Part shown: positions 11,897-40,611 of the stretch, piece after piece | Position numbering within the stretch: the stretch's first letter is position 1 | Layout: every line of letters begins with the position of its first letter | Source of the DNA: a virus | Strand: one strand, 5' to 3' | Virus record (IMG/VR): IMGVR_UViG_3300042503_001580 | Span: 1 to 40,620 of that record | Length of the DNA stretch: 40,620 nucleotides | Notes under the pieces: generated by a model | What the model was told of the DNA's origin: nothing | Seen by the model: only the letters and a program-made list of their open reading frames with translations | Databases searched by the model: none | Made by a program: the position numbers and the translations under genes

Positions 11897-13333
11897 ATGA
11901 ATCAAAAACAATATATCCGATCAAGATTTGAAAAAATACTTAAAGAAAGTATTCACGAAAAAGCAGAATCTATTATGAATAGATTGAACCTTAAAAAGGA
12001 AACAGATTTGTATGACACAAACGAGTTTGATTATGTTCAAGAGGGTGAAACATGTGAACAATGCGGTTCATCAGAAGTGACAGAAAAAGAGTGTATGGAA
12101 TGTGGTTGGAAGGGTTCATCTGAAGTTATGGAATTTGAAGATGATATTGACTATGGTAATACTAAATATGGTTTAGGTGATGATGACGATGAAGAATTCG
12201 TAAATTATGATGATATTAATTATGACGATGAAGAAGAATATTATCCTGAACTAAGAATGCCTCGTGACATGCCATCATACAAAACTAAATATAGACATAG
12301 TGATGATGAAGAAGAAATAACAGAAAAACTTCATGGTAAACAACGTAAATTAGACAAAAACAAAAATAATAGGATTGACTCCGAAGATTTCAAAATGTTA
12401 AGAAAACAACAAGATGAAACAGAACAACTTTATGAAGTAGAGTTTGAAAAAGAAGTAGGAGAAGGTGAAACTGATGAAAGTAAAGAATTCGCCTATGCCG
12501 CTATGATGGCTAAAAAGAAAGGTAAAAAAACTTTTGAGTTGGATGGGGAAACATTTGACGTTAAAGAATCTTACATGAGAAAAAAATCAAAAGTTAATGA
12601 AAGTATTCTATTTACTGAAACAGACTTAATCGATTTTATCGAAAAAATCGTAAACGAAGATAAAAAATTCAGAAAATCAGAACCTAAAGGTTTTAGAGAG
12701 TATGAAAGAGTTCACAAAGCAGACAAGAAAGAAAATGAAAATTATTTGAAAAGTGTTGCTAAAAAAATGACTGATTATTTGAAAGGTATGAACGACGAAA
12801 GTTCAAAATATGAGATGAAAGAAACTCAAAAATTCCCAACTGAAAATGGTGGATTAAAAAAGGGTAATAGAAAAAAATACACACCATCGGATGCAGTCGA
12901 TGAATACATTGATGCTTTTTCATATCCAGGTCAAACTAATTTAGTTTATGATGAAATAAAACCTAATGAGGAGTGGATAGAAGATTTATTAAAAGGATCT
13001 TCAAGAACAGGAAACGCTCAAGTTGACAAAGATGGAAATGCTTTAGGTAATGTAGTTCCAAGTAAAACAGGAGAAAAGTTCTTTAAAAATTATAAAGACA
13101 ATCTCTATGGTCAAGAACAACAAGAAGCATCTTATAAAAGACAACCACAACCTGTAGACCAAGCTGGCGAACACACTGAAAGAGGATCTTTAAAATCAAG
13201 AAAAGGAAAAAAGACTTCACAATCAGTTCTAAATAAGTTAGAAGAAAATGTAAATGAGAAAGAAAGTAAAAAGTTGAACGAAGAGTTTGATAGAATTCAA
13301 GATTTAATGGGATACAATAGAAAAACTCAATAA
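11897..13333 (+). CDS. Tagged protein with zinc ribbon and EF-hand-like loop
   Basis: 478 residues. The leader MNQKQYIRSRFEKILKE|S fits the L-x-E|S cleavage pattern. A zinc ribbon follows (C53, C56, C66, C69 as CEQC...CMEC). An acidic stretch contains E-E-F-V-N-Y-D-D-I-N-Y-D-D-E-E-E, shared almost exactly with the protein at 22044. Residues 153-165 (DKNKNNRIDSEDF) form a calcium-binding EF-hand/dockerin-like loop. Then comes a short A-A-M-M-A-K-K-K-G-K-K-T-F-E-L-D-G domain near 205 and a long lysine/glutamate-rich tail. It looks like a head-core or internal protein assembled from small modules; its function is not known. Confidence 0.75.
   Translation: MNQKQYIRSRFEKILKESIHEKAESIMNRLNLKKETDLYDTNEFDYVQEGETCEQCGSSEVTEKECMECGWKGSSEVMEFEDDIDYGNTKYGLGDDDDEEFVNYDDINYDDEEEYYPELRMPRDMPSYKTKYRHSDDEEEITEKLHGKQRKLDKNKNNRIDSEDFKMLRKQQDETEQLYEVEFEKEVGEGETDESKEFAYAAMMAKKKGKKTFELDGETFDVKESYMRKKSKVNESILFTETDLIDFIEKIVNEDKKFRKSEPKGFREYERVHKADKKENENYLKSVAKKMTDYLKGMNDESSKYEMKETQKFPTENGGLKKGNRKKYTPSDAVDEYIDAFSYPGQTNLVYDEIKPNEEWIEDLLKGSSRTGNAQVDKDGNALGNVVPSKTGEKFFKNYKDNLYGQEQQEASYKRQPQPVDQAGEHTERGSLKSRKGKKTSQSVLNKLEENVNEKESKKLNEEFDRIQDLMGYNRKTQ
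12191..12239 (+). repeat. 49-bp segment shared with 22143-22191
   Basis: 47 of 49 bases are identical to 22143-22191, both coding for E-E-F-V-N-Y-D-D-I-N-Y-D-D-E-E-E. Both differences are synonymous, consistent with a recent exchange or purifying selection. Confidence 0.9.
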
Positions 13334-19257: not shown

Positions 19258-19632
19258 ATGAAAATCATTGTAACCCAACATCAACTTGATTTAATCAACG
19301 AAACTTATAAAAGGGATCGTTTTGATGCTAAGTATGAGGACGAATATCCGAAGTATAAGAAGTTGTTTTTAAAGACCATTTCTAAAGATGTTAAAGGTTG
19401 GGGTGAATGGCCAGGATCAATTTATCTAATGAACGAAACTGGGGAACCTTTATTTGTATATAGAATACCATCAAAAACCGTATATTACGATTATTCAATA
19501 GATAGAGACATGGAAGAATATATACCTTACCATATAATATCAAGACATTTAAAAAATGCAGTTTATGATTACTTTAAAGGACTTTTTCCTGATATTGAAA
19601 TAAAAGAGGTAAGTGGGGCTAATATTGGATAG
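19258..19632 (+). CDS. Tagged protein 1 of the MKII array
   Basis: 124 residues starting MKIIVTQHQLDLINE|TYKRD. The leader is the variant form of MKIIITESQ with a possible cut after I-N-E. The body is small and acidic/aromatic (for example WGEWPGSIYLMNETGEPLFVYRIP), suggesting a beta-rich domain of unknown function. First gene of an array of five co-directional genes with 2-nt gaps or short overlaps. Confidence 0.75.
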   Translation: MKIIVTQHQLDLINETYKRDRFDAKYEDEYPKYKKLFLKTISKDVKGWGEWPGSIYLMNETGEPLFVYRIPSKTVYYDYSIDRDMEEYIPYHIISRHLKNAVYDYFKGLFPDIEIKEVSGANIG

Positions 19633-19634
19633 TT

Positions 19635-20186
19635 ATGAAAATAATAATATCTGATAACCAATATGGTCTTATTAAAGAATCTTACCGAAATAAAGGTATT
19701 GGTGCGGTTATTAAGTATTGGAAAAAAGAGTTAGAAAAAGGTAACAAAATTAGATTTGATAGAGATGAACTTGAATTTTGGGGTATAACCGAATTTACCG
19801 ATAAGTTACATGCTCAAACAGAATTTCAAGAATTAGTTGGGGATGAGGTATTTGTTAAAAAATTTATAAATACATTAAAAAACAAGAAATTCTCGACAAA
19901 AGATTTTAGTGAGAGATCAGTTGGTGGTTATGATTTTGAGTGGGAAATCACTAATATGGAATATAGAGATTATGATGTTTTTCTATATGGAAAAACTTTA
20001 CCTGGAGGTTCCGTTACTCTTATGGAGGATGGAAGACATCTAACCTTAGATGAGGCTTTGCAAGATGAAGATATAGGTTGGGAAATCCAAGAAGAAGTTA
20101 ATGATGTTGTTCAAGATTGCATGAATGAAATAATTTTACCTGTTACAGGATATGATGTAACGGTTCCTTTGGTTACTATTTATTAG
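19635..20186 (+). CDS. Tagged protein 2 of the MKII array
   Basis: 183 residues starting MKIIISDNQYGLIKE|SYRNK, with an I-K-E|S site. The body is acidic with an alternating pattern around 95-140 (GGYDFEWEITNMEYRDYDVFLYG) that looks like a beta sheet; no family recognised. It begins 2 nt after the previous stop. Confidence 0.75.
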   Translation: MKIIISDNQYGLIKESYRNKGIGAVIKYWKKELEKGNKIRFDRDELEFWGITEFTDKLHAQTEFQELVGDEVFVKKFINTLKNKKFSTKDFSERSVGGYDFEWEITNMEYRDYDVFLYGKTLPGGSVTLMEDGRHLTLDEALQDEDIGWEIQEEVNDVVQDCMNEIILPVTGYDVTVPLVTIY

Positions 20187-20188
20187 AA

Positions 20189-20539
20189 ATGAAAATAATA
20201 ATTACAGAATCACAATTAAAAACTATAACATTTCAAAATGCGGTTGATATGGCTTGGAAAGACATTGCTGATAACATAAAAGAAGAAGATTATTATGATG
20301 AAGGTGGATATGGAGATAATTACGAAGCAATCACAAAAATTGATGTGGTAACGGCATACAAGACTGATAATGTTGTTGAGTTAGGAATAATTATTTATAT
20401 AGATACAATTTTTGACACATTTGATGTTGGTGACTATTTGTGGGACTTGAAATTAAATTTGGAAAACTATTTGGGAAAAAATAATTTTAAATTTAAACTA
20501 CTCAATGTTATAAACGAAAATCCAAGAACTGATTGGTAA
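20189..20539 (+). CDS. Tagged protein 3 of the MKII array
   Basis: 116 residues starting MKIIITE|SQLKTI. The body is very acidic. Its first 20 bases, ATGAAAATAATAATTACAGA, are identical to the starts at 20539 and 20862, though the rest of the three genes has diverged. Body fold: alternating strands (VVELGIIIYIDTIFDTFDVGDYLW), similar in pattern to its neighbours. Function unknown. Confidence 0.75.
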   Translation: MKIIITESQLKTITFQNAVDMAWKDIADNIKEEDYYDEGGYGDNYEAITKIDVVTAYKTDNVVELGIIIYIDTIFDTFDVGDYLWDLKLNLENYLGKNNFKFKLLNVINENPRTDW

Positions 20540-20865
20540 TGAAAATAATAATTACAGAATCTCAGAAAAAAAAACTAATGAATGATTTTATGAAATCACT
20601 CGTAGATGATACCTTAGATGAAAATGAACCTTCTTATCTTGATTCTTATATTGTTATTTGGGATAAAACTGATGTTTGGAACATTGATAACGAGCCGTTT
20701 ATTGAATATGATAAATCTGATGGTAGATTGTGGATATCAAAAAAATATTTAAACAACTTAGAATCTTGGTTCCCAATCAAAAAAGAAAAAGTGTTAGATA
20801 TGATTAAAAACTCTTTTGAAAATAAATTTAATGTTGATGTAAAATATATCGAAGCGGGGTCATGA
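20539..20865 (+). CDS. Tagged protein 4 of the MKII array
   Basis: 108 residues from ATG 20539, which overlaps the previous stop by one base; an in-frame alternative start lies two codons upstream. It begins MKIIITE|SQKKKLM. The acidic body ends with D-M-I-K-N-S-F-E-N-K-F-N-V-D-V-K-Y. No family recognised. Same leader and likely the same destination as its neighbours. Confidence 0.75.
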   Translation: MKIIITESQKKKLMNDFMKSLVDDTLDENEPSYLDSYIVIWDKTDVWNIDNEPFIEYDKSDGRLWISKKYLNNLESWFPIKKEKVLDMIKNSFENKFNVDVKYIEAGS

Positions 20866-21449
20866 AAATAATAATTACAGAATCACAATATAACAAACTG
20901 ACCGAAGATAACCTTCGAAAACTTTGCTATACGGTATGGAATAAACAAAAAAAGATGGGTGAAGAACCACATCTTGATGATGTTATCTATGATATATCTG
21001 AAATTAGAAAAAATACAAACGAAGACTTCCAACTTATTAGACCCATTTGGTATGAATACAACGGTGGTTTTAGAAATTTGGTTGAAAAACTAAAAAATGA
21101 AATTGAAGATAAAACATATGATCTGAAAAGTAGTTGGGGTAATCTTGACACAAGAATTGAAGTTATTGAAGTAACCCCGTTTGGTAAATTAGGAGAAAAC
21201 TTTGGGGTTGACATATTTGTGTATGTTGATGATCAAGGAACGATTAATTTCAATATGTATGAAGAAGGTACCGATAATGAAATTGAGGTAAATGACACAA
21301 TAGAAGCGGCTTATTTTGAAGCTCAATCTAATTATGAAAGTAGTGATCTTCTTGGTTACTTAAGAGGAGAAGTTTATGATCTTTTTTATAAAAAATTAGA
21401 AAAATACGGCATCCCAATTGATGTGGATGTTGACCTAAAAGAATTATAA
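20862..21449 (+). CDS. Tagged protein 5 of the MKII array
   Basis: 195 residues starting MKIIITE|SQYNKLTE|DN. It overlaps the previous gene by four bases (ATGA). The body contains a beta-like region (LDTRIEVIEVTPFGKLGENF...FVYVDDQGTINFNMY) that parallels the pattern in members 3 and 4, so the array may consist of diverged paralogues. No enzyme motif is seen. Confidence 0.75.
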   Translation: MKIIITESQYNKLTEDNLRKLCYTVWNKQKKMGEEPHLDDVIYDISEIRKNTNEDFQLIRPIWYEYNGGFRNLVEKLKNEIEDKTYDLKSSWGNLDTRIEVIEVTPFGKLGENFGVDIFVYVDDQGTINFNMYEEGTDNEIEVNDTIEAAYFEAQSNYESSDLLGYLRGEVYDLFYKKLEKYGIPIDVDVDLKEL

Positions 21450-22545: not shown

Positions 22546-23781
22546 ATGAGAAATATTAGAAAAAAATTATATACTGAGGGTATATCCAAAAAAGACTTAT
22601 TAAGACTTATGGAAGCCCCAATCGACTACGAAGGACCTGAAAGGATGGCCGGAGATGTCGAGAGAAAGATTACAGGAAAACAAACACCGTTTCATAATTT
22701 TCCTGCTATGCCAGAAATGGATAGAGACTTTATTGAGTTAATATCTTCTAAAAGATTCAAGGACTCAGTTGATAAAGTTAGAATGGCAATGGGAGACACA
22801 AGAACCATTCAAGGATCAAACGCTCTTATGCAGTTGATGGGAACCGTAGGTCAAGCGATGCAAAGACTTATAATGATCCAATCACAAAACAAAGAAGAAC
22901 TTGAAGCACTTGCAGTTAAACTTGTTAAAGATGAATTGGGTATTCCTGAAGGAGCGATGCAATTCGATGCTCAACTTGTAATGCAACCTATGGGTGCTGC
23001 TGAAGGAATGAAAAGTGAGCCTGAAATGCCAAGTGAAGAAGAAGTTGAAGAACTTATGGGAGACATTGAAAACTTTAACTTGGAAAGAGCAAAAAGAAGA
23101 TTTATCAATTCATTAATTCAAGGAGCGGCTTTTAAAGGTGGTCATATGTATGTTATGGTTAGAGATGAGATTAACGACATTAATCCACAATTAATGAATC
23201 TATACGCAGTAACTCAAGCTTTAATGGAACACGCTTATTGGATATTTCCTGATATGGAAGGAATGGCCGGAGGTGGTGGTGGTCAAATGGGACAATCTGA
23301 ATTTGACCCTGAAACAGATCCACCAACAGTAAAGGCGAGAGCCGTTACATTCCCATTACTTGTTCATGAGTTAGTTAAAGGGGTTTACGAGGTATTTGGA
23401 ACACACGGATTACCTGATGACCCAAGACAAGCTGAAATGGTATTAAGTGCTGAAGATTCATTACCATCAGAAATTTGGGATTCTCGTTTGGGACCAATTT
23501 TCTGGGAAAAGTTTGTTGCAACATATCCAATGGAGTTATTCGAAGATGATATGAAACATATCCAACATTATTTGTTTATGCGTTTTTCAGCATTAAATGC
23601 TGAGGAGTTTATGACTTTGGCCAAAAAGATTCTTAAAGGAGAACCTGAAGGGCAGAGGATCATTCAAAGAATGGTTGATGATATTGTTAAAGAATTAAAA
23701 GAACAAGATTACAAAGATGCGATGGGTGGTGAAGATGATGAAGATTTTGATGATGTTGATTTAAGCGATTTGGGACTTTAA
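22546..23781 (+). CDS. Probable conserved virion protein
   Basis: 411 residues. The first 27 residues (MRNIRKKLYTEGISKKDLLR then LME|AP) give an L-M-E|A site. The main body (about 45-390) looks mostly helical and rich in methionine and aromatic residues, with a conserved-looking core A-F-K-G-G-H-M-Y-V-M-V-R-D-E-I-N-D-I-N-P near 190, and a Gly-rich insert (AGGGGGQMGQ). The C-terminus is acidic. This resembles proteins conserved in large Bacteroidetes phages without assigned function. Its size and place after tagged genes suggest a head or core protein. Confidence 0.7.
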   Translation: MRNIRKKLYTEGISKKDLLRLMEAPIDYEGPERMAGDVERKITGKQTPFHNFPAMPEMDRDFIELISSKRFKDSVDKVRMAMGDTRTIQGSNALMQLMGTVGQAMQRLIMIQSQNKEELEALAVKLVKDELGIPEGAMQFDAQLVMQPMGAAEGMKSEPEMPSEEEVEELMGDIENFNLERAKRRFINSLIQGAAFKGGHMYVMVRDEINDINPQLMNLYAVTQALMEHAYWIFPDMEGMAGGGGGQMGQSEFDPETDPPTVKARAVTFPLLVHELVKGVYEVFGTHGLPDDPRQAEMVLSAEDSLPSEIWDSRLGPIFWEKFVATYPMELFEDDMKHIQHYLFMRFSALNAEEFMTLAKKILKGEPEGQRIIQRMVDDIVKELKEQDYKDAMGGEDDEDFDDVDLSDLGL

Positions 23782-23820: not shown

Positions 23821-24102
23821 ATGGGAAATATTGACTGCGAAATCTACATAAGCCAACTTATAACTTTTTTTGAAAACAATCCTAATGATTTAATGTCACT
23901 GATCGGTGAGGTTCAAAAGGAAGAGTTTTACAATGCGTTACGAGAACAGTGCGAAACAAATTCAAAAAAAGGTGAAGATCATGTGATCTCAAGAAATCAA
24001 ATGATTAACATCGTTTTAAATTTAAAAATACCTGAACTAACTGAAGAAAGTGTTGAATCTTTTATTCAGACCACAAAATGGGGACAAATTAATTTGAATT
24101 AA
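23821..24102 (+). CDS. Small hypothetical protein
   Basis: 93 residues, helical (MGNIDCEIYISQLITFFENN...), with no recognised family; phage proteins of this build are common (recalled). Upstream there is TATATTAT, a degenerate form of the RTATTTAT motif. Its 3' end overlaps the minus-strand gene 24099-24593 by 4 nt. Confidence 0.65.
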   Translation: MGNIDCEIYISQLITFFENNPNDLMSLIGEVQKEEFYNALREQCETNSKKGEDHVISRNQMINIVLNLKIPELTEESVESFIQTTKWGQINLN

Positions 24103-24593
24103 GACAATGAGGTAGTTGAGGAATTTGATGAGTTGCAAAAGTTTGTTATAACCCCACCGCTGAATCTCATTAATTTATCCCAAACTTTTTTTGACCTTTC
24201 TAAATCTATTTTATCAGATAAATTATGACCGTAAGTTTTTGCATATCCATTTAAAACTGAGCCTAATTCTTCTATTGTTTTTATTTGTCCAATAACATTT
24301 TCTAAATTTTGAAGATTACTAAGTTTTTTTACTTTTTCTTGAATTGCAGAATCGGTTGTTTTTGATTGTCCTTTAACCTTTCGAGCATGTGCGAACAATT
24401 CCATAACTAACTGACGTTTATTTTTAGGATTTTTACAATTACTAAAATTACCACCAGCAACATCATCAGGTATTGATGAACCTGGAACACTTGAGTCTGT
24501 TGTCCAATTACTACCGGCATCTAACAAATTACCTAATGGCACTTGTTCATTAATTAATCGGTTTAATTGAGATTCAGTTAAAATAATTTTCAT
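24099..24593 (-). CDS. Tagged protein, minus strand
   Basis: 164 residues starting MKIILTE|SQLNRLINE|Q, the same leader as the plus-strand array 4 kb away, so the tag follows the gene rather than the locus. The middle is polar and Gly/Ser-rich (40-60); the rest is helical with a K-R-Q-L-V-M-E-L-F-A-H-A-R-K segment. The C-terminus is Ser/Thr-rich. Function unknown. Confidence 0.75.
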   Translation of the reverse strand: MKIILTESQLNRLINEQVPLGNLLDAGSNWTTDSSVPGSSIPDDVAGGNFSNCKNPKNKRQLVMELFAHARKVKGQSKTTDSAIQEKVKKLSNLQNLENVIGQIKTIEELGSVLNGYAKTYGHNLSDKIDLERSKKVWDKLMRFSGGVITNFCNSSNSSTTSLS

Positions 24594-30777: not shown

Positions 30778-31899
30778 ATGAAACTGAAACTAGAATATGT
30801 ATGGCTAGATGGGTATAAGCCAGAACCAAATTTAAGAAGCAAAGTTAAAATTGTTGATTATGATTCTGTTTCCACAGCATTTCTTGACGGAAATTTTCCA
30901 ATGTGGAACTTTGATGGATCATCCACATCACAAGCAAATACGGGAAATTCAGATCGTTTGTTGAAACCTGTTAGACATTATGTTCAAGACATGCAATCAA
31001 CAATCTATATTTTATGTGAGGTGTTAAACCCAGATGGAACACCACACGAATCAAATAAAAGATCTAGTATTGGTGAAGGATTTGAAGACCTTTGGTTTGG
31101 TTTTGAACAGGAGTATTTCATTCGAGAAGAAGTTAATGGAAACATTTTGGGACACAAGAGAAATATTCTAAAAGGTCAAGGTGAATATTATTGTGGTGTT
31201 GGACATAATGTTGTTGGTCGTGAGTTTGTTGATGAACATTTAAATATGTGTTTGAACTATGGTATTAACATCACAGGAATAAACGCCGAGGTTGCTTTAG
31301 GTCAGTGGGAATATCAAGTATTTTCACAAGGTAAATTACAAGGTGGTGACGATCTTTGGATGACAAGATATTTTCTATTCAAAATCGCAGAAAAATATGG
31401 TTATCATATTGAATTACACCCAAAACCAATCACACACGGAGAATGGAACGGATCAGGTCTTCATACAAACTTTTCAACAGACATGATGAGATTTGATGGA
31501 AACGAAGAATACTTTATGGCATTATTCAACGCATTTGAATCAAGACATGAAGATCATATCAAAGCATACGGATCAAATAATCATTTGAGATTAACAGGAC
31601 AATACGAGACTCAGGCGATTGATAAGTTCAGTTGGGGTGTATCTGATCGTGGAGCGTCAATTAGAGTTCCACAGGACACCGCAAAAGAATGGAAAGGATA
31701 TGTTGAAGATAGAAGACCAGGGTCAAATGCTGATCCATACAAGATCATTCGTGAAATTGTTGATTCTTTGAATGTTACACAAAATTTATATGAGACAAAA
31801 ACTATGATGAATAAACTTGTTGATTTGAAAAGTTTAGATGGTAAATACGGCACGATATCTAGAGATGAATTATTAAATGTGTATAGAGAAGAAGAATAA
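30778..31899 (+). CDS. Glutamine synthetase, type II (GSII)
   Basis: 373 residues, the size of GSII rather than GSI (about 470). Hallmarks include Y-V-W-L-D-G at 7-12, W-N-F-D-G-S-S-T at 43-50, W-F-G-F-E-Q-E-Y-F (metal and glutamate site), H-P-K-P, N-G-S-G-L-H-T-N-F-S near 222-230 and a late D-R-R-P. The enzyme makes glutamine from glutamate, ammonia and ATP, and glutamine feeds nucleotide synthesis. The key motifs look intact, so an active enzyme is likely. Flavobacteria have GSII enzymes of this type, so host origin is plausible. The next gene starts in its stop. Confidence 0.92.
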   Translation: MKLKLEYVWLDGYKPEPNLRSKVKIVDYDSVSTAFLDGNFPMWNFDGSSTSQANTGNSDRLLKPVRHYVQDMQSTIYILCEVLNPDGTPHESNKRSSIGEGFEDLWFGFEQEYFIREEVNGNILGHKRNILKGQGEYYCGVGHNVVGREFVDEHLNMCLNYGINITGINAEVALGQWEYQVFSQGKLQGGDDLWMTRYFLFKIAEKYGYHIELHPKPITHGEWNGSGLHTNFSTDMMRFDGNEEYFMALFNAFESRHEDHIKAYGSNNHLRLTGQYETQAIDKFSWGVSDRGASIRVPQDTAKEWKGYVEDRRPGSNADPYKIIREIVDSLNVTQNLYETKTMMNKLVDLKSLDGKYGTISRDELLNVYREEE

Positions 31900-35255: not shown

Positions 35256-35690
35256 ATGAAATATATAACATCACTTTTTTTATTGGTTTTACTCATTACT
35301 TCTTGTGTAAAAGAAGACGTAACTCCACAACAACCATTACCGCCACAACCCATAATTACTGACACAATAACTGTGGACTCCACCATGAGTCTAAAAAACA
35401 CAACGTGGGTCATTACAAAGATTTTAAATACTAGTTTCAATCAAGAACTTAGATCTGATACACTTTTTTTTATTTCAAATAATGTGTATTCTTTCAATGG
35501 AGTCCAATCGACATATAATTTGTATTCAAATGCTTTCGGATATTCTTTAACTTTGAACAATACGCCTTGGGGTCATATCAGTGGAACTATATATGATTAC
35601 AACTTAACACAAGGTTTAGTTGAAAATTGTCAATTTAAAAACTATTTTACAGGACAAAATAGTGTTAGAATTTGGATGGAAAAACAATAG
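35256..35690 (+). CDS. Predicted lipoprotein
   Basis: 144 residues. The N-terminus MKYITSLFLLVLLITSC is a classic signal with a lipobox ending at C17, so the mature protein would be lipid-anchored. A proline-rich spacer follows, then a probable beta-rich domain (LKNTTWVITKIL..., FFISNNVYSFNG) of the type seen in small lipocalin-like Bacteroidetes lipoproteins. Phage lipoproteins often block the receptor to exclude later phages (T5 Llp is an example); that role here is inference. It shares a promoter with the gene before it. Confidence 0.75.
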   Translation: MKYITSLFLLVLLITSCVKEDVTPQQPLPPQPIITDTITVDSTMSLKNTTWVITKILNTSFNQELRSDTLFFISNNVYSFNGVQSTYNLYSNAFGYSLTLNNTPWGHISGTIYDYNLTQGLVENCQFKNYFTGQNSVRIWMEKQ

Positions 35691-35780: not shown

Positions 35781-35791
35781 ATTTTTGATGG

Positions 35792-35798
35792 TATTTAT
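35792..35798 (+). promoter_or_regulatory. RTATTTAT motif before the gene at 35815
   Basis: GTATTTAT with 16 nt to the ATG at 35815, directly after a terminator. Confidence 0.55.
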
Positions 35799-35814
35799 AA
35801 TAAAAATATCATTT

Positions 35815-36246
35815 ATGAAAAAAGATCTTTTCAAAATCAACGAAGAAGACAGAAATAGAATTTTGGAAATGCATATAACAGCAACCAAAAATAAATATTT
35901 GTTTGAAGATAACACAACAACAACCACAACTACAGTGGCTGCTACACCTACAACACCAACACCCGCAGCAAGATACACAACAGCAACTTGTGCAGGAAAA
36001 AAACCTAACTGCCAAGAAAAAGTTTTAAAAATTCAAATTAGAATGAATGATGAATGTCCTGCTGAAGTCTTGACCACAAAACTTGTTGAAGATGGGGCTT
36101 GGGGAGCAAAAAGTTCGACAGCGTGGGAAGCTTGTAAAGGTAAATTAAAACCAACAAAACAAGCACCAACAACCCCTACCGATCAAAAACCGGCGGTAGA
36201 CAATACGACAAGTCAAGAAACAATGAACCAAATGTTTAATAGTTAA
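35815..36246 (+). CDS. Tagged protein with peptidoglycan-binding-like domain
   Basis: I place the start at ATG 35815, not the in-frame ATG 30 nt upstream, because the motif lies between. 143 residues. The leader MKKDLFKINEEDRNRILEMH belongs to a second leader type (I/M-x-E...R-I-L-x-L/M-H). A Thr/Pro/Ala linker follows, then a small cysteine-containing domain: V-L-K-I-Q-I-R-M-N, L-V-E-D-G-A-W-G-A-K-S-S-T-A-W-E-A-C. The D-G-x-W-G-x-K-(S/T)-x-x-A-(W/V) segment is the core of peptidoglycan-binding type 1 domains. Probably virion-associated. Confidence 0.68.
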   Translation: MKKDLFKINEEDRNRILEMHITATKNKYLFEDNTTTTTTTVAATPTTPTPAARYTTATCAGKKPNCQEKVLKIQIRMNDECPAEVLTTKLVEDGAWGAKSSTAWEACKGKLKPTKQAPTTPTDQKPAVDNTTSQETMNQMFNS

Positions 36247-36250
36247 AAAG

Positions 36251-37051
36251 ATGGGAAATATAATACTAACAGAAAACCAATATTCAAGAATAAAAAACTT
36301 TTTAGTTGAAAGTGAAATAACTAAATCTTTTTTACTTGAACAGAATGTCACAATAGACAATAAAACAGGATTTGTAACTTTAAATAAAGATTTAAAATTT
36401 AAAGCTAAAGGAAATGACGGGAAAGAAAAAGATATTGAAATAGTAGGTAATAACACAAAATTATATCCAACGACAAAAGGAAATGTTGGAGGTGAAGTAT
36501 TACTTAAAATTACTAATGCAGGCTTCCCAACTCCATATGTGAACAACAAAACTAAGGTATATTTTATGTGTAAAACAGGTGAACTTATGAACGGCCGAGA
36601 AAAATATAAAATTACTGACAAAAAATTGGTTTCTGATATTTGTAAGTCTGTTCAGATTAAGAAAAACTTATCCACAACTTTTGGCACTGAAGCCGTTGGT
36701 GGTGGTTTAGGTTATACTCAAAAATATGATCAACCAATAACAGATCAAGATGGTAAAAAAATGACAATACCAAAAGGAACAGGTTTTGTTCCTAAAAAAG
36801 ATGGTGCGGGTGCTAGTTTTAAACTTGGAAATGATTTTGGTTGGTTTGATTGTAATACCAAAAACTTTGTAATAAATAAAGTTAAATATACTAGTGATAC
36901 TTTATCTAAAACACTATCGGCAAAATTGTGTAAGTCTGAAACTCCAGCACCAAACGTAGTTGGTGGAGGTGGAGGAACTATTACACCAGGTTCGAAAGGA
37001 GGAGGAGGATCTTCCACAGCACTTCCACCTGATATTGATTTATATATTTAA
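36251..37051 (+). CDS. Tagged protein with Gly-rich C-terminus
   Basis: 266 residues starting MGNIILTE|NQYSRIKNFLVE|S, a variant of the MKII leader with a clear L-V-E|S site and a further L-L-E|Q near residue 30. A beta-rich body of about 130 residues is followed by a second lysine-rich domain and a Gly-rich tail (VVGGGGGTITPGSKGGGG). No enzymatic motif. It starts 4 nt after the previous stop, so it shares the transcript. Confidence 0.7.
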   Translation: MGNIILTENQYSRIKNFLVESEITKSFLLEQNVTIDNKTGFVTLNKDLKFKAKGNDGKEKDIEIVGNNTKLYPTTKGNVGGEVLLKITNAGFPTPYVNNKTKVYFMCKTGELMNGREKYKITDKKLVSDICKSVQIKKNLSTTFGTEAVGGGLGYTQKYDQPITDQDGKKMTIPKGTGFVPKKDGAGASFKLGNDFGWFDCNTKNFVINKVKYTSDTLSKTLSAKLCKSETPAPNVVGGGGGTITPGSKGGGGSSTALPPDIDLYI

Positions 37052-37091: not shown

Positions 37092-38054
37092 ATGAAAAAT
37101 AAGTTACATATGACAGAAAGCGAAATGAAAAGAATACTTTCGCTTCACAAAGAACGAATCGATAAAGAAAGAAAAATTATCAAAGAACAAAATGGAGACA
37201 TTGAAGAAGATGTTGATCCAGGACAATCTACAGGTAGAATCTTTGCCGGTTCTGCTGCAGGTGCTGGAACAGGTGCTCTTGTTGGATTGTCGGTGGCGGG
37301 ACTTGCTGGACTTCCTGTAGGTGCTGTAATCGGTGCTGGGGTTGGTGCTTTATCAGGTTGGTTTACGACAGGAGGTGGATATGCCGAAAGAGTTCAAAAA
37401 TTATTTAAATTTTGTAGAGATCACAGATCAGATTTAACTAAACCTTTAAATTCAATAGATAAAATTAGAGATATTGCTGACAATCTAAGAGCCGCAATGG
37501 CGGGTGTAGGAACTGATGAAGTTTTAATTGCAAAAAATCTTAGAAAACTTAAAACGATTCCAGATCTTTGTAAGTTGAGTCAAGTATATAATCAAAGATA
37601 CGATCAAACTTTATTTGACGCATTAAATGGCGATATTGACCAAGATGGTGAATGGAGAGATTTTGTATGGGTTCCACTTTCTGAATTAACAAAAAACACA
37701 AAAAAAGTAGATCCTTCCAAATTAAAAGAAAATGCTAAGAAATGTGGTTGGGGTAGTGATATTGATGGTTATAAAAATTCAGGTTGGAGATGTCCAAAAA
37801 ATAAAAATGTAACACCACCACCAGGACCATATCCACCTGGGCCAGGACCAAGTCCTGTTCCTGGAGGTGGAGGATATTCCTTTGATTTTGAAGTAATAAT
37901 AAATGCAATTAACTCCAAGTGTAAAGGAACACCAACACCTGGTGGAGGTGGAGAAGAAGAAATTCAAAATATTGAATGGAGTGTGACAGACGTGAATCAA
38001 CCAAAACAAGACACTAAAGTTTCTTCAGAAACAATTAACAAATTATTTAAATAA
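37092..38054 (+). CDS. Tagged protein with glycine-zipper membrane segment and annexin-like repeat
   Basis: 320 residues. The leader MKNKLHMTE|SEMKRILSLH combines both leader types. Residues 51-90 are a glycine/alanine zipper (GSAAGAGTGALVGLSVAGLAG and following) able to insert into membranes. Residues about 126-185 resemble a single annexin repeat: A-A-M-A-G-V-G-T-D-E-V-L-I-A-K-N-L, then S-Q-V-Y-N-Q-R-Y and L-F-D-A-L-N-G-D-I. Two proline/glycine-rich linkers separate a C-terminal domain. I infer a packaged protein that contacts membranes on DNA entry; this is speculative. The annexin match is by eye. Confidence 0.68.
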   Translation: MKNKLHMTESEMKRILSLHKERIDKERKIIKEQNGDIEEDVDPGQSTGRIFAGSAAGAGTGALVGLSVAGLAGLPVGAVIGAGVGALSGWFTTGGGYAERVQKLFKFCRDHRSDLTKPLNSIDKIRDIADNLRAAMAGVGTDEVLIAKNLRKLKTIPDLCKLSQVYNQRYDQTLFDALNGDIDQDGEWRDFVWVPLSELTKNTKKVDPSKLKENAKKCGWGSDIDGYKNSGWRCPKNKNVTPPPGPYPPGPGPSPVPGGGGYSFDFEVIINAINSKCKGTPTPGGGGEEEIQNIEWSVTDVNQPKQDTKVSSETINKLFK

Positions 38055-38061
38055 TTAAAAT

Positions 38062-38223
38062 ATGGAAAAGAGAAGATTATTAGAGCAGACCATGGGTCAA
38101 ATTAAAGAAGTTCAAAGTAAATTAAATAGTTGTTTTAATGCAGGTTTAGTTGTTGACGGAAAACTAGGACCCAAAACCGCAGACGCAATTATGAAACATC
38201 TCGGTATTAATATATCGAAATAA
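38062..38223 (+). CDS. Small peptidoglycan-binding-like protein, 53 aa
   Basis: ATG 38062 opens MEKRRLLEQTMGQIKEVQSK, followed by L-N-S-C-F-N-A-G-L-V-V-D-G-K-L-G-P-K-T-A-D-A-I. The V-D-G-x-x-G-x-K-T-x-x-A-I core is that of peptidoglycan-binding type 1 domains. An early L-L-E|Q fits the leader pattern. It lies 7 nt after the previous stop and before a terminator, so it closes the tagged operon. Confidence 0.7.
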   Translation: MEKRRLLEQTMGQIKEVQSKLNSCFNAGLVVDGKLGPKTADAIMKHLGINISK

Positions 38224-39363: not shown

Positions 39364-40611
39364 ATGAAAATTATTATATCTGAAAGTCAACTTCAATATT
39401 TAAATGAAGCTTTAGGTGTTCCTGATTTTATTTTGGATGCTGCTGACATGTTATATGATGTTGTTGAAAATGACATCAGATCAATAGACGACATTCAAGA
39501 TGAATATAATTTTAAAGGTAAAATTGATTTTGAATTAGGAGATAAGAAGAAAATAAGAATCGACTCTTATGAACTTAACGTTAAAATCGAAGAAATGGAA
39601 GATGAAGAGGGAGTCTTAGATATTATTTCAATGGGTATGGGTGGAAGATTTGGTTTTGACAGAGATGTTAATTTAAAAATAAACGAACCTTCAACCACTC
39701 TAAACTTAGATATAACTTTTGCTGTTGGTGACAATTGGAAACCAGAAGAACTTATTGCTAAAATGGAAGAGGAAAGAGACGAACACGTATCGGCTTTGGC
39801 TCATGAGATAAAACATAAATACGATAAACAAGCTAAAGAATATAGTCGTATAGGCCCTGATGCGATTTATCAAGCAACACAACAAAAAGGAAATTTTGCA
39901 ATACCGGCAATCGATAGAGTTTTTTATAGATTTATGTATTACATTCACGCAATTGAAAACCTTGTTAGACCAACAGAAGTTGCATATTCTATGAAGAGAA
40001 AGAACATTACAAAATCACAGTTCAAAGACTTTTTAGAGGACAATAGAGTTTATAAAGAATTATTAAGAATAAAAAACTACACTTTTGATAATTTTATACA
40101 AGATTTAAAACAACAAGAAGATAGATTGGATGCTCTTTTAGAACACATCGGTGAAGACCCATCTGACATGTCTATTGATGAAAAAATAAACCGAGTATTA
40201 GAAGTTGTTTATATTGATTTAGTAAATAACAGAATGGACTTTTTTATGCAAATGACTCAAGGTCCTATGGATGACTTTTTAACATTTGGAGCACAACTTG
40301 GAATGATACCACCAGGATTTGAAGAAAAAATGAAACAACTTCAAAAAACAAATGAGATTAGACAAAAGTTTTTATCACGAACTATGAGGTATGAAAAAAA
40401 CCCAACTAAGTTTTTTGAGGACGAATTTGAAGAATTTAATTATGTTGCAAACAAAATGTTAAAGAAAATTTCTAAACTATATGCAATGGCAAAAGACGAC
40501 GAACAAGTTAGTGAATCGATTCTAAATTGGGATCTTCACCAACAAATTATGGAAAAAAAATATGGAAAAAGAAAAATCGAAACAAAATACAAAAATTGGA
40601 ATCTTAAATAA
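39364..40611 (+). CDS. Tagged HExxH metallopeptidase candidate
   Basis: 415 residues starting MKIIISE|SQLQYLNE|ALG, with two good [I/L]-x-E|[S/A] sites. Residues 147-151 are H-E-I-K-H within S-A-L-A-H-E-I-K-H-K-Y-D, the zinc-metallopeptidase HExxH signature in the right hydrophobic context. The third ligand is not certain; E of E-N-L-V-R-P-T-E-V-A-Y near 197-205 is a candidate, as in gluzincins. The C-terminal half is helical. A packaged peptidase could act on host proteins after injection or on the head during assembly; neither is shown. Confidence 0.75.
   Translation: MKIIISESQLQYLNEALGVPDFILDAADMLYDVVENDIRSIDDIQDEYNFKGKIDFELGDKKKIRIDSYELNVKIEEMEDEEGVLDIISMGMGGRFGFDRDVNLKINEPSTTLNLDITFAVGDNWKPEELIAKMEEERDEHVSALAHEIKHKYDKQAKEYSRIGPDAIYQATQQKGNFAIPAIDRVFYRFMYYIHAIENLVRPTEVAYSMKRKNITKSQFKDFLEDNRVYKELLRIKNYTFDNFIQDLKQQEDRLDALLEHIGEDPSDMSIDEKINRVLEVVYIDLVNNRMDFFMQMTQGPMDDFLTFGAQLGMIPPGFEEKMKQLQKTNEIRQKFLSRTMRYEKNPTKFFEDEFEEFNYVANKMLKKISKLYAMAKDDEQVSESILNWDLHQQIMEKKYGKRKIETKYKNWNLK

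Follow-up and report, generated by a model that had tools for sequence, protein, structure and literature searches.

A phage-encoded protein with a predicted single annexin repeat, a conserved leader and a membrane-type segment

A protein encoded at positions 37092..38054 (+) of a viral DNA stretch very likely carries an annexin repeat, an identification that is well supported by sequence and by predicted structure. The window, the whole stretch of 40,620 nucleotides analysed here, comprises positions 1 to 40,620 of IMG/VR record IMGVR_UViG_3300042503_001580. Annexins bind calcium and membranes and are most familiar from animals and plants; they have been regarded as a eukaryotic family with a scattered set of bacterial members, and a survey published in 2014 reported no viral ones (PMC3894181). 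The domain type is already known; what is new is the phage setting, the cysteine pair, the leader, the membrane segment and the wall-binding partners. No report of phage annexins was found in the open-access literature searched, a scope that leaves out most subscription papers and preprints. Our preferred reading, to which we assign a probability of roughly 0.55, is that the protein is a head-packaged ejection protein that a large tailed phage would place in the host envelope.

The presence of the ORF was confirmed, with an ATG start and a product of 320 amino acids. Comparison with its relatives yields an overall dN/dS of ~0.24, indicating purifying selection, and residues 1-34 show zero non-synonymous changes in three comparisons. 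The protein begins with a leader (residues 1-32, MKNKLHMTESEMKRILSLHKERIDKERKIIKE, 37092..37187 (+)), which is conserved in the family and is a putative capsid-targeting propeptide. It is followed by a Gly/Ala-rich uncharged segment, or glycine zipper (residues 49-97, 37236..37382 (+)), predicted from hydropathy and GxxxG motifs to insert into a membrane, and by a pre-helix (residues 97-110, 37380..37421 (+)) that is helical in the model and contains Cys108, whose column is invariant in a 26-row alignment. The annexin repeat itself (residues ~122-203, 37455..37700 (+)) is identified by sequence, profile and structure matches. Behind it lie a Cys-pair module (KENAKKCGWGSDIDGYKNSGWRCPK, residues 211-236, 37722..37799 (+)) that occurs in one copy or two copies or is replaced in relatives, and then a Pro/Gly linker, an FDxExxxxAIxxKC peptide and a short C-terminal tail (37800..38051 (+)), the latter recognised by their conservation in the family.

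The original prediction, made from the sequence alone, had claimed an annexin-like repeat, and this part held. The top matches of a phmmer search against the PDB were all annexins (annexin VI, E 3.4e-11; A4, E 4.6e-7; A5, E 2.3e-6); the lowest of these E-values sum several repeats of one chain, and single repeats are weaker. A profile built from eight relatives reached a best E of 4.7e-13 against solved structures. The annexin family model PF00191 scored 24.1 bits by hmmscan (E 3.8e-5), slightly below its cut-off of 25, and 26.7 bits, above the cut-off, in a six-frame search that matched none of 14 control genomes. Among related records, 9 of 15 matched the annexin profile at E up to 0.01, again with 0 of 14 control genomes. 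The claim is refined in that there is a single repeat, whose last part reads L-x-G-D-I-D-x-D-x-E-W. One repeat does not make the four-repeat disc of the eukaryotic core, which excludes the eukaryotic four-repeat type and not the annexin domain family, since bacterial single-repeat annexins are known (PMC3894181).

Absence of the annexin helix bundle would have refuted the original prediction, and the bundle is present in the predicted structure. A domain model derived from 26 phage sequences (pLDDT 82) displays the annexin five-helix repeat, with helices A (122-136), B (143-150), C (156-169), D (174-181) and E (185-204). When this model was compared using VIA-align, all of the top 50 rows were annexins or giardins, with a best Z of 9.6 for annexin A2, and the annexin A2 entry 5lpx agrees with it to 2.1 A over 75 residues. 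The full-length AlphaFold2 model has a mean pLDDT of only 49 and is poor outside the annexin domain; despite this, its Foldseek list consisted of annexins, those entries titled PDZ domains being annexin A2 fusions. For the domain model, Foldseek E-values were only about 1e-2. Middling Z values can be common with helical models. We accept the annexin fold despite this caveat because of the purity of the list and its agreement with the sequence matches, and the predicted fold and the sequence relationship are shown. In the viral structure library BFVD a single clear match emerged (probability 1.00), to A0A6J5RF64, an 801-aa phage protein that is uncharacterised, so proteins of this type already sit in the databases without annexin annotation.

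An A/B-loop GxGT followed ~40 positions later by an acidic residue in the D/E loop identifies a type II Ca2+ site (PMC3894181). The phage repeat meets this pattern, with an A/B loop of M136-A-G138-V-G140-T141-D-E and the acidic D181 opening the D/E-loop motif D181-I-D183-Q-D185-G-E187-W188-R-D (37632..37661 (+)). In the 26 aligned sequences T141, D181, D183, D185, W188 and cysteines 108 and 160 are invariant. GxGT is found in 20 of the 26 rows, the others having GFxRT or VWxGT, and since the A/B loop is altered in these six, Ca2+ binding may not be universal. Binding of Ca2+ and of acidic phospholipid by the repeat is inferred, without binding data. Cysteine is almost absent from bacterial annexins (PMC3894181), and the cysteine pair therefore marks the phage branch; that the paired cysteines form a disulfide is possible and remains a guess.

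The Gly/Ala-rich segment is of membrane type. Residues ~49-97 lack D, E, K, R, N, Q and H entirely, are 31% Gly and include 7 GxxxG motifs, with a best 19-residue Kyte-Doolittle mean of 2.09, and the low-confidence model places helices at 58-72 and 74-92. The predicted glycine-zipper membrane segment was thus upheld by composition and hydropathy. The curated Pfam zipper models stayed below their cut-offs (PF13441, 15.9 vs 28.9 bits; PF13488, 13.3 vs 25), and we describe the segment as zipper-like in composition and claim no membership of a Gly-zipper Pfam family. The P22_gp7 Pfam model touches the Gly-rich segment (E 0.38), and residues 35-217 weakly match a tape-measure PHROG (E 1.3e-4). That the protein is membrane-active, as had also been proposed, is an inference from the zipper and the annexin together, with no activity data.

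In T4, the gp21 protease cuts after L/I-X-E and internal proteins bear short capsid-targeting propeptides (PMC9026906), and capsid-targeting sequences can package foreign proteins (PMC3012670). We found [IL]xE within residues 16-42 in 24 of 25 distinct leaders of the annexin family, compared with a shuffled mean of 14.3 and with 0 of 2000 shuffles as high; as the leaders are mutually related, this test overstates their independence. In the window leader, a gp21-type cut could fall after IKE-32 or IEE-39, a position that is inferred, without data on cleavage. Across all window genes, [IL]xE near the N-terminus is only mildly enriched (p 0.05) under a loose definition of a leader. The leader of the annexin protein is shown to be both conserved and common to unrelated proteins of these phages; for example, BLAST aligns the annexin protein of contig L102 with the window protein 35788-36246 over the leader alone, across 30 residues at 47% identity, the two being unrelated elsewhere. 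To this extent the predicted targeting leader held, with targeting as well as cleavage inferred.

The gene order in relatives places the annexin gene near head genes. A gp23-type capsid gene has an annexin gene downstream in six records (G007, G008, G009, G012, G013 and G014), and five of these six contain the gp21-type protease family. The order in G007 is gp21, a 577-residue ORF occupying the place of the scaffold gene, gp23, a small ORF, annexin and the gene for a small protein with a peptidoglycan-binding-like domain (PGBD). In G007, G008 and G012 the gp23-type capsid protein has a site of the same type, LINE|A, at residue 60; T4 gp23 is cleaved near that position. Neither the window nor its nearest relatives (G001-G006, G010 and G011), which are fragments or divergent, yielded a gp21 or gp23 homologue, so the packaging inference for the window runs through the family. 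Delivery from the virion, as originally predicted, is backed by context only, namely the L/I-X-E leaders, the sharing of leaders and the capsid-gene position in six records, and is not shown.

Directly after the annexin gene is a 53-aa gene (38062..38223 (+)) with the leader MEKRRLLEQ and a peptidoglycan-binding-like domain (PF01471, 20.2 bits against a cut-off of 23, E 6.6e-4). Such a small leader-bearing gene directly follows the annexin gene in 56 of the 69 loci with enough sequence, distant ones included, a count that is redundant among overlapping loci. The previous gene (36251..37051 (+)) encodes 266 aa with a leader ending in SFLLEQ, and L034:9827-10717 encodes an annexin fused to its homologue, as BLAST to both window genes indicates. 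The constant PGBD partner and this fusion suggest that these genes form one functional unit. Upstream, 35812..36246 (+) encodes another leader protein (ending KYLFED), in which a stretch appears on reading to resemble a peptidoglycan-binding domain; Pfam gave no match for this protein, and the homologous stretch in L034 matched a local PGBD profile weakly (E 0.017). Separately, the protein of 35256-35690 has a lipoprotein-like N-terminus (LITSC), and in related contigs its gene likewise lies immediately upstream of the annexin cassette.

The window has a GC content of 30.7%, and Shine-Dalgarno-like sites precede 1 of 33 genes, a pattern familiar from Bacteroidota. From this indirect evidence, the host is probably a member of the Bacteroidota. 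A Bacteroidota promoter pattern occurs at 12 sites vs 6.3 expected, which is not decisive. Most bacterial annexins have been found in Bacteroidota (PMC3894181).

In IMG/VR, 52 contigs encode the related annexin domain and 14 a second annexin family; one record, G006, contains both, and together the two families occupy 65 distinct viral contigs. Architectures of the first family vary around a constant core, with either a single Cys-pair module or two of them. In five of its contigs (L052, L060, L061, L051 and L063) the C-terminal stretches read like peptidoglycan-binding domains, and the PGBD profile matches those of L051, L061 and L063 weakly (E about 0.1-0.4). The protein of L065 is without the membrane segment, and in L036/L037 the annexin is, by reading, inserted into a homologue of the window 11897-13333 protein. 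Proteins of the second family consist of a leader with LNE/INE sites, one conserved hydrophobic helix (FLGLGPVGW) that replaces the Gly/Ala segment, the annexin and a C-terminal peptidoglycan-binding-like part. Their annexin scores lie at or above the Pfam cut-off (25.0-31.5 bits), and the same two cysteines are kept. We found no meaningful annexin relative in the INPHARED collection (50,697 phage records) or in plasmid collections, and pattern scans of genome collections turned up nothing in bacteria that is related to the phage domain. A stretch of 31 residues in a solute-binding-like protein of a Clostridia MAG (L067) was rejected as chance or local convergence.

In the ejection reading, the leader would target the protein to the prohead core and be removed by the gp21-type prohead protease, and at infection the protein would exit the head together with the DNA. 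The Gly/Ala-rich segment would then enter a host membrane, and the annexin repeat would lie on the membrane surface, with Ca2+ held by the A/B loop GxGT and D181/D183/D185 bridging to acidic phospholipid. The annexin would probably be on the periplasmic side, a face we prefer because of the peptidoglycan binding, the paired cysteines with their possible disulfides and the high Ca2+ there. Peptidoglycan-binding modules would tie the protein to the wall; in the window such a module would be supplied by a distinct partner protein, and in the second family by a stretch at the C-terminus. The outcome may be a patch or conduit, anchored in the envelope where injection takes place, that eases DNA entry or seals the punctured membrane. 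Packaging, ejection, topology and purpose are all inferred, and the sequence cannot tell whether the protein is a conduit, a seal or a block to superinfection. Against this reading, there is no virion proteomics and the PGBD matches are below the Pfam cut-off. A bolder version, which we consider improbable, is that head-carried annexins are Ca2+-triggered membrane patches, as in animal cells. If it were true, the patches would leave the head with the DNA, be anchored in membrane and wall, seal or frame the injection wound, keep the host alive and perhaps block superinfection.

Other explanations can be proposed for these features. The protein could be a structural component retained in the virion, in the neck, portal or tail-tube interior or as a tape-measure-like protein, with the annexin a protein-protein scaffold that does not bind lipid. 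The adjacency of annexin and capsid genes in relatives, the weak tape-measure PHROG match and the fact that tape measure proteins too carry Gly-rich membrane segments favor this possibility. However, the PHROG match may stem from the Gly-rich segment alone, the leader is like those of internal head proteins, and the peptidoglycan-binding partners and the conserved acidic loop suggest the envelope, and we regard a structural role as unlikely. We also doubt that the protein is an envelope protein made during infection, such as a superinfection exclusion or lysis accessory factor, whose leader would be a regulatory or assembly tag. The membrane segment, the wall-binding partner and the nearby upstream protein with a lipoprotein-like N-terminus would fit; however, the annexin protein has no evident secretion signal or lipobox, its gene is in a head-gene position in relatives and its leader is common to other proteins. 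A much weaker case can be made for an effector that disturbs the host membrane, since injected toxins contain single annexin domains (PMC3482391, PMC8213781). In those toxins an enzymatic toxin domain always follows, whereas a Pfam search of the annexin protein and its relatives found none, although a missing match is no proof. Finally, chance or convergent likeness of a helical domain with a GTDE loop that is no annexin could draw on the hmmscan score slightly below the cut-off and the weak Foldseek E-values, yet it is all but ruled out by sequence and structure lists whose tops are filled by annexins alone, by the 31.5 bits reached in the second family and by the placement of the GxGT and D/E loops at the correct helix boundaries.

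Parts of the arrangement resemble known systems. Bacterial single-domain annexins, such as those of Cytophaga hutchinsonii (Kodavali et al. 2014, PMC3894181), likewise have one domain and a GxGTD loop and come mostly from Bacteroidota; the proteins described here differ in being phage-encoded and in having two invariant cysteines, an expanded D-x-D-x-D-x-E-W loop, a leader and a membrane segment. Toxins delivered by PVC/eCIS particles, which are phage-tail-like machines, also contain a single annexin domain, whose suggested role is to aid in breaching membranes (Zhang et al. 2012, PMC3482391; Geller et al. 2021, PMC8213781). In contrast to these, the phage protein has no detected enzymatic toxin domain and has peptidoglycan-binding partners and a head-protein-type leader. 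The internal head proteins of T4 share with it L/I-X-E leaders on otherwise unrelated proteins, and gp21/gp23-type head genes adjoin in relatives (PMC9026906, PMC3012670); however, the phage annexin leader is ~32 residues compared with 10-20 in T4. T4 internal proteins enter the cytoplasm, which fits poorly with a peptidoglycan-bound role, and are not known to contain membrane and wall modules. P22 gp7 and T7 gp14-16 are envelope-inserting proteins carried in the head of short-tailed phages. We found no significant sequence relationship to them, and annexin is not part of those proteins. A viral annexin branch is relevant to how annexins arose and spread horizontally, and phage annexins offer a handle on how large phages move proteins and DNA across the inner envelope without immediate killing of the host.

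Several further observations concern leaders and neighboring genes. At least eight unrelated window proteins begin with MKIIIxESQ-type or related leaders, many having L/I-X-E near residue 15; they include 19258-21449, 24099-24593, 36251-37051 and 39364-40611 and may form a large packaged set. The 164-aa leader protein of 24099-24593 (-) (MKIILTESQLNRLINEQ) contains a possible divergent second annexin: residues ~92-130 match the phage annexin profile weakly (14.4 bits, E 2.4e-4), the next window ORF scoring 4.8 bits, and Pfam and PDB searches gave no match for this protein. In the 613-aa protein of L037 (L037:9524-11365), the C-terminal part reads as homologous to window 11897-13333, and zipper and annexin are inserted behind a CxxC-rich N-terminus. 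Ahead of its hydrophobic helix, the second-family annexin protein at L117:5290 has a lengthy series of GAEVA repeats. The window protein 22546-23781 is probably a virion protein and is 64% identical to a G007 protein (L102:1114-2457), whose gene immediately precedes a 591-aa ORF resembling, by reading, a large terminase. By reading, 30778-31899 resembles glutamine synthetase, an unusual phage gene that is conserved in related contigs.
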